A model generated the notes under the pieces. That model saw nothing but the letters and a program-made list of their open reading frames with translations. It was not told where the DNA came from and made no database searches. Of a stretch of 64,000 nt of DNA, positions 33,155 through 35,065 are shown piece after piece; the first letter of the stretch is position 1, and the number at the start of each line of letters is the position of its first letter. The DNA is taken from positions 148,545 through 212,544 of the forward strand of contig NZ_JAENIJ010000002.1 in NCBI RefSeq assembly GCF_016595435.1. Direction: 5' to 3'. Made by a program: the position numbers and the translations under genes. Source of the stretch: Luteolibacter pohnpeiensis. Its GTDB lineage: Bacteria; Verrucomicrobiota; Verrucomicrobiia; Verrucomicrobiales; Akkermansiaceae.

Positions 33155-34012
33155 ATGATCTGGACGTTACCCATGTGGCCCGAAATTCAAAAACATTGGC
33201 GCGACGGGATTGAGATCCTGGTCCTCGCCGTCTGCATTTACCAGATTTACCGTGCTTTCCGGGCCACGCGCGGTGCTCAGATTCTGGTCGGACTCGGCAC
33301 GATCCTGGTGGTGTTGACCCTGGTTTCCCAGGTTTTCCGCTTCGAGGTCATCTGGTGGCTCATCACCCGCGCCTCTGCGATTTTGGCGTTTGCCTTGATC
33401 GTCATTTTCCAGCCCGAGCTACGCGATGCCCTTGCCCGACTCGGCAGCAAGCGGATCTTTTCCTTTTCCAGCAGACGCAGACTGGCCTTCCTCGAACGGT
33501 TTGCGGATTCGGTGATCGCCTTGTCGAAAAAGCGTATTGGCGCACTGTTCGCGATCCAGCGCGATATCAGCCTGAAGAAATTCCTCGAAACCGGCGTGGT
33601 GCTGGATGCCCAATTTTCCCCCGAAATGGCGACTGCCGTTTTTTACCCGAAAGCTCCCTTGCACGACGGCGGCATGATCATCGCCGATGACCGCGTGGCG
33701 GGAGCCGCGTGCGTATTCCCCGTGACTCAGCGCGAAATGCGGGACCGCTCGACCGGTTTGCGTCACCGCGCCGCCATCGGTCTCACTGAAGAAACCGATG
33801 CCGTCGCTGTCGTGGTGAGCGAAGAAACGGGCGGGATTTCCATTTGCGTCGATGGTCGATTGGAACGAAATCTAACCGAAAAACAATTCCGCGACCGGCT
33901 GGCGGATATTTTCATAGCCGGCAAATCCCTTACTGAACCTGAAGATGACGAAGAACTGGATCGCGAAGATACTGTCACTCCTTCTCGCGATCGCGATATG
34001 GTTTCTGATTAG
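33155..34012 (+). CDS. cdaA: Diadenylate cyclase CdaA (DacA), c-di-AMP synthase
   Basis: This membrane enzyme condenses two ATP into cyclic di-AMP. The 285-aa product shows three N-terminal helices (IEILVLAVCIYQIY, GAQILVGLGTILVVLTLV, ASAILAFALIVIFQPELR). The DAC domain follows with FYPKAPLHDGGMIIADD (the DGA motif appears as DGG) and GLRHRAAIGLTEETDA (the RHR motif). ATG 33155 or 33173 could be the start. In its last 68 nt the gene overlaps a 44-aa CdaR-like gene in another frame. c-di-AMP in other bacteria controls K+ transport, turgor and cell-wall homeostasis. Confidence 0.95.
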   Translation: MIWTLPMWPEIQKHWRDGIEILVLAVCIYQIYRAFRATRGAQILVGLGTILVVLTLVSQVFRFEVIWWLITRASAILAFALIVIFQPELRDALARLGSKRIFSFSSRRRLAFLERFADSVIALSKKRIGALFAIQRDISLKKFLETGVVLDAQFSPEMATAVFYPKAPLHDGGMIIADDRVAGAACVFPVTQREMRDRSTGLRHRAAIGLTEETDAVAVVVSEETGGISICVDGRLERNLTEKQFRDRLADIFIAGKSLTEPEDDEELDREDTVTPSRDRDMVSD

Positions 34013-34079
34013 GGATCATCTGGACAACGATGGCGGAAACCTGGATCCGCCACGTGGCCAAATCGTCCCGGAGCCTTGA
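33945..34079 (+). CDS. Minimal CdaR/YbbR-like membrane peptide, 44 aa
   Basis: An ATG at 33945 inside the end of cdaA opens a 45-codon frame ending TGA at 34079. The peptide starts MTKNWIAKILSLLLAIAIWF, which matches the N-terminal membrane segment of CdaR/YbbR (a basic N-terminus, then a helix containing KxxSLLLAIxxWF). In many bacteria cdaR directly follows cdaA, and its YbbR repeats regulate the cyclase. Here the YbbR repeats are missing: only a short acidic/proline tail (about 24-44) follows the helix. The position, overlap and motif argue that it is translated. It is probably a helix-only CdaA partner or a degenerate remnant. Confidence 0.65.
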   Translation: MTKNWIAKILSLLLAIAIWFLIRDHLDNDGGNLDPPRGQIVPEP

Positions 34080-34091
34080 GCGATCCCGAAA

Positions 34092-34925
34092 TCAGCGAGC
34101 GCTGATCTGGATGTTGTCGATCAATCGGACATCGCCATAGAACACCGCGGTCGCCAGGACTGTTGGGCGATTTAGATCATCCACCGGCTGCAGCGTTTCC
34201 GCATCCACCAGCGATAGATAATCGATCCGGGTTAGCGGTGAGGCCGAAATTTCTTCACTCGCGATCTGCAAGATTTCCTCCTTGGTCAGCGCCTCACTGG
34301 CTTTCAGCAAGGCCTTGCGAATCCGTGGAGCATCCGCGCGCTGTTCTGCGGTCAATTTCACATTCCGCGAAGACATTGCCAAGCCATCCGCCTCCCGCAC
34401 GGTCGGCCCGCCAACAATCTCAACCGGGACATTCAGGTCGCGAACCATTCGGCGGATGATTGCCAACTGCTGGTAATCCTTCTCACCAAAAACCGCGATC
34501 TCGCAACCGGACAGCAGAAACAGTTTCAGCACCACCGTGCAAACTCCGTCGAAATGCCCGGGCCGGGTCGCGCCACACAAGGTCTGCGAAAGCGACTGTT
34601 CCAAAACGGTGATCGATCGATCCGGAAAATACATGGATGACACCTCCGGGGTGAAAACCACATCCACCCCTTCCGCCTCACAAACCGCCAAATCGGCTTC
34701 CATCGGCCGTGGATAACCCTCGAGATCCGATGCGCGATCAAACTGGATCGGATTCACAAAAATCGAAACGACCACCGTACCGGTTGGCCCGGCCAGCTCG
34801 CGCGCACGGCGGATGAGCGACAAATGCCCTTCATGCAACGCCCCCATGGTTGGCACCAATACCAATGGCTTAGGAAGTTTAGCCAGCTCCGCGCGCAGGG
34901 TGCTTCCGGTCTCAATCGTCTTCAT
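34092..34925 (-). CDS. panC: Pantothenate synthetase (pantoate-beta-alanine ligase)
   Basis: It joins pantoate and beta-alanine with ATP, making pantothenate for CoA. The 277-aa product (ATG 34925, MKTIETGSTLRAELAKL) has all family blocks: VPTMGALHEGHLSLIRRA (HIGH-type motif), SIFVNPIQFDRASDLEGYPR, PGHFDGVCTVVLKLF, GEKDYQQLAIIRRMV, LAMSSRN and the C-terminal YLSLVDAETLQPV. The frame continues upstream to 35027 but without family similarity. It converges with cdaA and its small overlapping gene. The window also holds the last CoA step, CoaE, fused to Rho at 60770-62704. Confidence 0.96.
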   Translation of the reverse strand: MKTIETGSTLRAELAKLPKPLVLVPTMGALHEGHLSLIRRARELAGPTGTVVVSIFVNPIQFDRASDLEGYPRPMEADLAVCEAEGVDVVFTPEVSSMYFPDRSITVLEQSLSQTLCGATRPGHFDGVCTVVLKLFLLSGCEIAVFGEKDYQQLAIIRRMVRDLNVPVEIVGGPTVREADGLAMSSRNVKLTAEQRADAPRIRKALLKASEALTKEEILQIASEEISASPLTRIDYLSLVDAETLQPVDDLNRPTVLATAVFYGDVRLIDNIQISAR

Positions 34926-35065
34926 GCCGGGAGCCTGCATCGACCTTCCCGACTCCGCAATTTCAGGGTGCAGCCAGGCGCGGAAAAATTTCCCCGATAC
35001 CCGAAAACCCCGGGTGGCACGGCTCATGCTATTTGCCGCGCGAAGGTCATCCTTCTCACCCCCAT

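Follow-up and report, generated by a model that had tools for sequence, protein, structure and literature searches.

The segment described here lies within a 64,000-nucleotide stretch of DNA from Luteolibacter pohnpeiensis (the whole of which is referred to below as the window), and is organised around a gene for a membrane-bound diadenylate cyclase, cdaA, the 3' end of which is overlapped across 68 nucleotides by a second frame on the same strand (Table 1). That frame, which is termed mini-CdaR in the following, starts with an ATG inside cdaA, ends with a TGA, and encodes a peptide of 44 residues (MTKNWIAKILSLLLAIAIWFLIRDHLDNDGGNLDPPRGQIVPEP) that is composed of a membrane helix (NWIAKILSLLLAIAIWFLIR) and a further 21 residues, most of which are polar. 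The convergent panC gene ends only 12 nucleotides past the mini-CdaR stop codon, so that the window leaves no room for YbbR domains at this position. Inspection by eye revealed no clear ribosome-binding site upstream of mini-CdaR, and a scan of the peptide against Pfam and NCBIfam matched no model at E values up to 10. In this genome, glmM is located on a different contig from cdaA and mini-CdaR.

Table 1. Features of the cdaA and mini-CdaR locus, with positions given in the window.
Feature	Position	Strand	Evidence or remark
cdaA, membrane-bound diadenylate cyclase, 279 aa	33173..34012	+	TIGR00159 5.3e-65, above cut-off; Pfam DAC 1.6e-36; CdaA_N 2e-12
mini-CdaR (helix-only CdaR homologue), 44 aa from ATG	33945..34079	+	present in 33/37 same-genus genomes; helix pN/pS 0.22
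CTG, candidate true start (48 aa)	33933..33935	+	ATG start here in 31/35 genus sequences
membrane-helix codons W5-R23	33957..34013	+	best-conserved positions W5, K8, L12, A15, W19, I22
cdaA stop codon, within mini-CdaR codons I22-R23	34010..34012	+	same peptide codon in 33/33 genus loci
tail motif PPRGQIVPE	34047..34073	+	predicted outside the cytoplasm, from the distribution of charges
panC (pantoate--beta-alanine ligase), convergent	34092..35027	-	TIGR00018 2.5e-87, above cut-off

A preliminary description of this sequence had noted a CdaR-like frame of 44 residues inside the end of cdaA, and had held that its position and motif argued against chance. Both statements were borne out by a search with the 44-residue query, which recovered the frame in 33 of 37 genomes of the same genus (the window's own included), a recurrence that speaks against a fortuitous open frame. 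None of these matches contained an internal stop, and all 33 loci (L001-L030 and L051-L053) were found to carry mini-CdaR at the end of cdaA and on the same strand; the four genomes that gave no match (G008, G015, G020 and G027) likewise gave no cdaA, and one of them (G015) harbors a partial mini-CdaR copy at a contig edge. The form common to the genus can be written as M-K-L-x-L-x-x-N-W-[IV]-A-K-x-L-S-L-L-L-A-x-x-I-W-F-L-I-K, followed by a variable stretch and by P-[RK]-A-x-x-V-x-[ED], and the window carries G in place of A within that tail pattern (P-R/K-A-x-x-V-x-E/D). The ATG start that had been proposed is present at 33945, but the usual start in the genus lies four codons upstream of it: among 35 genus sequences the codon at that place is ATG in 31, GTG in L029 and CTG in the window, and in L004 and L007 an ATG is found even further upstream. 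The window's gene may therefore begin either at CTG 33933 (giving 48 residues) or at ATG 33945 (giving 44). The comparison of relatives that had been suggested for the helix and the stop position found the helix, together with the placement of the cdaA stop within it, retained in all 33 genus loci.

The constraint acting on each reading frame of the overlap was estimated from 35 genus sequences (the 33 genus loci together with L102 and L103), across the 19 helix codons that extend from N-W to L-I. Over these codons the mini-CdaR frame gave a pN/pS of 0.22 (codon bootstrap 0.09-0.39), as against 1.47 (0.80-3.39) for that of cdaA and 2.37 (1.06-15.17) for the remaining frame, all of them pooled pairwise values from related sequences with partly saturated synonymous sites, for which it is the contrast between frames that matters. 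The cdaA frame gave a pN/pS of 0.25 over 262 columns and of 1.75 (1.03-3.64) over the final 26 columns of its alignment (24 of which were counted), and the entire mini-CdaR peptide gave 0.54, with weak constraint in its tail (0.70; 0.55-0.85). The helix of mini-CdaR is under purifying selection in the overlap and the cdaA frame there is not constrained, so that the peptide is the conserved element within it. The proposal that mini-CdaR arose as an open frame by chance, or reflects constraint on the CdaA C-terminus, can appeal to the fact that the helix codons of the genus lie almost wholly inside cdaA, and retains a vanishingly small probability given the lack of constraint on the cdaA frame (pN/pS 1.47-1.75) and the existence of other families, such as those of L033, L043 and L104, in which the match begins past the cdaA stop; because the same helix is encoded there beyond cdaA, its conservation is not a cdaA effect. 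Both versions of that proposal were rejected, on genus conservation and on the frame-specific pN/pS.

Beyond the genus, 22 additional genomes from the order were searched and 20 proved to have cdaA, and in 15 of those 20 the next gene encodes a protein that carries the CdaR helix and has no YbbR domain. These proteins are 50-96 residues long in 14 of the 15 cases, and 155 residues long, with a long N-terminal extension, in G040 (L034). The remaining five genomes possess cdaA without a mini-CdaR (four of family f3, at L032, L040, L045 and L048, together with G057, at L050), and a profile search of these five produced no match below E 0.7. The gene order in several families is cdaA, mini-CdaR and glmM; in some genomes of family f8 the first two genes are separated by 0.7 kb (L107) or 1.25 kb (L108), with mini-CdaR still directly before glmM. 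The corresponding intervals of three f8 loci (L107, L108 and L113), which span 0.2-1.25 kb, contain no clear long gene.

Across a sample of 288 genomes of the phylum, a profile built from 42 of the short sequences (A1, at E 0.01) matched 96 genomes, PF07949 (at E 0.001) matched 160, and TIGR00159 matched 280. The window's class accounts for 94 of the 288 by count of the genome listings, and within it A1 matched all 51 genomes whose CdaA match was strong (E below 1e-40), G276 (a special case described below) being one of them, and 0 of the 43 others; the matches of the 42 sequences that make up A1 are by construction, as are those of the 37 sequences that seeded a local mini-CdaR profile and were later recovered with it. 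All 36 of the class loci that were fetched have the helix either after cdaA or fused to it. The 43 genomes of the class without a mini-CdaR show mostly a weak DAC match, in families such as f7, f9, f13, f14, f16 and f17, and three show none; the families with the weak match probably rely on another type of cyclase.

PF07949 found no match in any of the 59 genomes of the genus and order, nor, at E 0.001, in any of the 94 class genomes; as the same genome search also missed G283, though Pfam then recognised its CdaR, and missed G249, G265 and G255, all of which have long CdaR-like frames, that model is incompletely sensitive, and the absence of YbbR domains therefore also rests on the shortness of the frames and on the identity of the next genes. 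Outside the class, A1 matched 45 genomes, with 44 of the matches directly after cdaA; the one that does not adjoin cdaA (in G113) was rejected as spurious. When all 44 adjoining loci were read, 38 matches proved to be the N-terminus of a longer CdaR frame, running 237-348 residues from match to stop except in G267, where the frame is cut by the contig end 117 residues after the match start. The six others, all from family f37 (L124, L125, L126, L128, L131 and L132), are helix-only, with a stop 41-49 residues past the match start, in a family that also holds CdaRs with a Pfam YbbR domain (L127 and L130).

A scan of named genomes, confined to the best 80 loci and hence not a census, yielded a helix-only form after or fused to cdaA in 52 loci, a longer CdaR frame (124-472 residues from the match) in 18, no match in five loci of other phyla and in two of Verrucomicrobiota (L181 and L200), and a locus cut by a contig end in three. 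The helix-only forms among these 80 came from Roseibacillus persicicus KCTC 12988, from MAGs of Prosthecobacter, Terrimicrobiaceae, Methylacidiphilales and Akkermansiaceae, from Candidatus Udaeobacter, and from one MAG titled Proteobacteria (L193), and the helix was present as a CdaA fusion in Verrucomicrobium sp. BvORR106. Records of Nitrospirae, Planctomycetes, Lentisphaerae, Atribacterota, Brevibacillus and Paenibacillus were among the 18 longer forms, of which L202 and L219 were checked for, and found to contain, a Pfam YbbR domain. Four short proteins (L099, L157, L213 and L155) have longer tails, of 87-113 residues from the match, that appear coiled-coil-like by eye.

That mini-CdaR is homologous to the N-terminal membrane helix of CdaR is supported by a profile comparison and by the common place of the two genes after cdaA. 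In hhalign, 48 of the short proteins were compared with 42 CdaRs of other classes and phyla, each cut to its first 110 residues, and aligned with a probability of 97.7% (P 2e-12, 39 columns), whereas control comparisons with reversed CdaR and with the CdaA membrane region gave 7.8% and 5.3%. Among 46 non-redundant short proteins, the residues W, K, L, A, W and I, which follow a 3-4-3-4-3 spacing on one face of the helix, rank with the best-conserved positions; the 42 long CdaRs also conserve K, L, A, W and I, but not the first W. Across short and long forms, the helix entropy profiles are correlated (0.81), and the helical periodicity is moderate, with 205 of 10000 shuffles equal to or exceeding the observed value. 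Descent from CdaA's own membrane helices, which was considered after MAFFT had placed the short proteins on the CdaA membrane region in a misaligned alignment (A3), was rejected on the same hhalign values (5.3% as against 97.7%).

Searches of the PDB with the A1 profile returned no meaningful match, and a long CdaR (L222) matched three chains, each of which starts past the helix of L222, so that no solved CdaR membrane helix was seen among the matches of either query. PF07949 matched none of 42 short proteins, and the Pfam and NCBIfam libraries as a whole gave none of those 42 a match with E below 0.02. By its lack of a PF07949 match, mini-CdaR is without a YbbR domain; and the failure of the libraries on the scanned set suggests that the family models miss the CdaR of an entire class.

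The preliminary description had offered two accounts of the short frame, as the smallest form of CdaR or as the remnant of a lost gene, and it is the former that is supported by the profile match and by the position after cdaA that both genes occupy. The latter, by which mini-CdaR would be the decaying stump of a full-length cdaR, is considered highly improbable: the long CdaRs that follow cdaA in other classes and phyla indicate that a loss did happen, and five genomes of the order have lost the helix as well, but the helix itself displays a pN/pS of 0.22, no genus match contains an internal stop, no broken copies were seen in the genomes sampled, a match accompanies every strong CdaA of the class (51 of 51), even in two genomes of 0.9 Mb (G094 and G115), and a second helix-only group exists elsewhere. 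The pattern that had been named as telling against the smallest-form account, full-length YbbR genes in sister species together with clear decay here, was found in its first part, as long CdaRs in other classes, but not in its second, as the window's gene is not decayed.

In several genomes the cyclase and the helix are joined in a single chain. In-frame fusions are found at L046 and at L167 (Verrucomicrobium sp. BvORR106), both of the Verrucomicrobium lineage, and at L088 (G153), the latter in the window's own family and in a single genome; in G053 the cdaA frame continues into the helix as one frame of 329 residues. A divergent CdaA on a very long branch (L115, in G276 of family f9) is fused to the helix and about 100 further residues, in which a Pfam scan found no YbbR domain, and one frame of 602 residues (L133, in G187 of family f21) combines CdaA with a long CdaR. 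A tree of 112 CdaA sequences, rooted at its midpoint and including long branches for L115, L139, L050, L088 and L218, places 52 loci of the class with a mini-CdaR and the five without one in a single clade (99/94), and the six helix-only loci of f37 in a separate clade (100/98), beside two longer forms of that family (together 100/99). The L088 fusion is separate from that of Verrucomicrobium, and all labels require five changes on the tree as compared with a mean of 45.7 after shuffling. The tree favours, as its simplest account, two independent miniaturisations and one later loss.

These arrangements also bear on the idea that mini-CdaR matters only for translation of the operon or for co-translational insertion, as a leader-like or coupling frame rather than as a protein partner. 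The overlap with cdaA in the genus and the proximity of glmM in other families would agree with such a role, which is nevertheless very unlikely: the position of the match start relative to the cdaA stop varies from -143 (L184) to +39 nucleotides (L116), and exceeds +39 in L034, L107, L108, L110 and L113, and yet the helix residues stay; the fused copies have no separate translation; and the constraint in the peptide frame is on amino acids.

The operon order in Firmicutes is cdaA-cdaR-glmM. Mini-CdaR corresponds to the CdaR/YbbR family (PF07949) in its placement after cdaA, and in several families before glmM, and in an N-terminal membrane helix with the common conserved residues K, L, A, W and I; it differs in having no YbbR domain, and in size, since nearly all of the short proteins have roughly 30-115 residues (155 in L034) and 40 of the 42 long CdaRs have 213-480. 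According to excerpts of two studies, the contact between CdaR and CdaA runs through their membrane domains (PMC10243994; similarly PMC8573169), and the second of these excerpts identifies the N-terminal membrane region as the contact region of CdaA in Listeria and calls the mode of CdaA regulation by CdaR unclear (PMC8573169). The excerpts available conflict on the effect of CdaR: loss of cdaR raised c-di-AMP in Porphyromonas (PMC9259658) and left it unchanged when S. aureus was grown in the standard way (PMC5207132), co-expression of the B. subtilis pair in E. coli raised it (as told in part of PMC8316131), and elsewhere CdaR is described as an activator or as a repressor. CdaA-CdaR fusions are described for some streptococci in an excerpt of PMC10243994, and resemble those reported here in combining cyclase and CdaR in one chain, whereas L046, L167 and L088 fuse only the helix and a short tail. 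Among the titles listed in searches of open-licence papers, none refers to a helix-only CdaR.

It is probable, on the comparative evidence assembled above, that mini-CdaR is a real gene derived from cdaR, which has kept the helix and a short tail and lost the YbbR domains, and the product of which packs on CdaA and sets its assembly or activity. Since the helix-only form retains the contact part of CdaR, we infer a one-helix subunit that packs against the cyclase; it most likely binds the membrane domain of CdaA, a contact that the excerpts describe for full-length CdaR and to which the natural fusions lend indirect support, and tunes or stabilises the enzyme. The mechanism so envisaged would comprise several steps: (i) mini-CdaR would be inserted in the membrane with its N-terminus inside and its tail outside; (ii) the one face of the helix formed by W, K, L, A, W and I, with its 3-4-3-4-3 spacing, would pack against the membrane helices of CdaA; (iii) that packing would set CdaA assembly or activity, in a direction that is not readable from sequence; and (iv) whatever the YbbR array senses would be dispensable for this core task, as the array has been lost. 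Several observations stand against such a role: the cdaA loci that have no mini-CdaR (the five genomes of the order, L181 and L200), the weak constraint on the tail, the wide intervals between cdaA and mini-CdaR in f8, the want of a clear ribosome-binding site, the moderate periodicity of the helix, the first W that long CdaRs do not conserve, the occurrence of the G153 fusion in one genome, and the conflicting reports on what CdaR does. KdpF, CydX and AcrZ are small one-helix accessory subunits, and mini-CdaR is similar to them by description in being a single-helix protein beside or working with a larger membrane protein; it differs from them in its derivation from a large multidomain protein.

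A related possibility is that mini-CdaR serves, in the manner of KdpF or CydX, as a stabiliser or scaffold, holding CdaA dimers together or recruiting GlmM, and does not regulate activity. The co-occurrence of mini-CdaR with cdaA in the class sample, the adjoining glmM of several families, and the 1:1 ratio that natural fusions would fix are all compatible with that role, which is regarded as unlikely, in that the glmM of the window's genome lies on another contig, so that a link to GlmM is not needed everywhere, and deletion of ybbR in S. aureus left the amount of DacA unchanged, according to an excerpt of PMC5207132.

As to the CdaR family at large, it is moderately likely that the helix constitutes its essential unit, that the window's class dropped the YbbR domains and kept the helix as a subunit, that a second lineage did likewise independently, and that the YbbR domains are an optional sensor. 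If that is true, the helix would be a general means of binding CdaA, and the extracytoplasmic array an accessory carried on it. The helix-only CdaRs, which arose twice independently on the tree, present the helix naturally detached from the YbbR domains, and lead to the prediction that it acts on CdaA by itself; the six conserved helix positions are offered as targets for mutation, and a comparison of helix-only with full-length forms is made possible.
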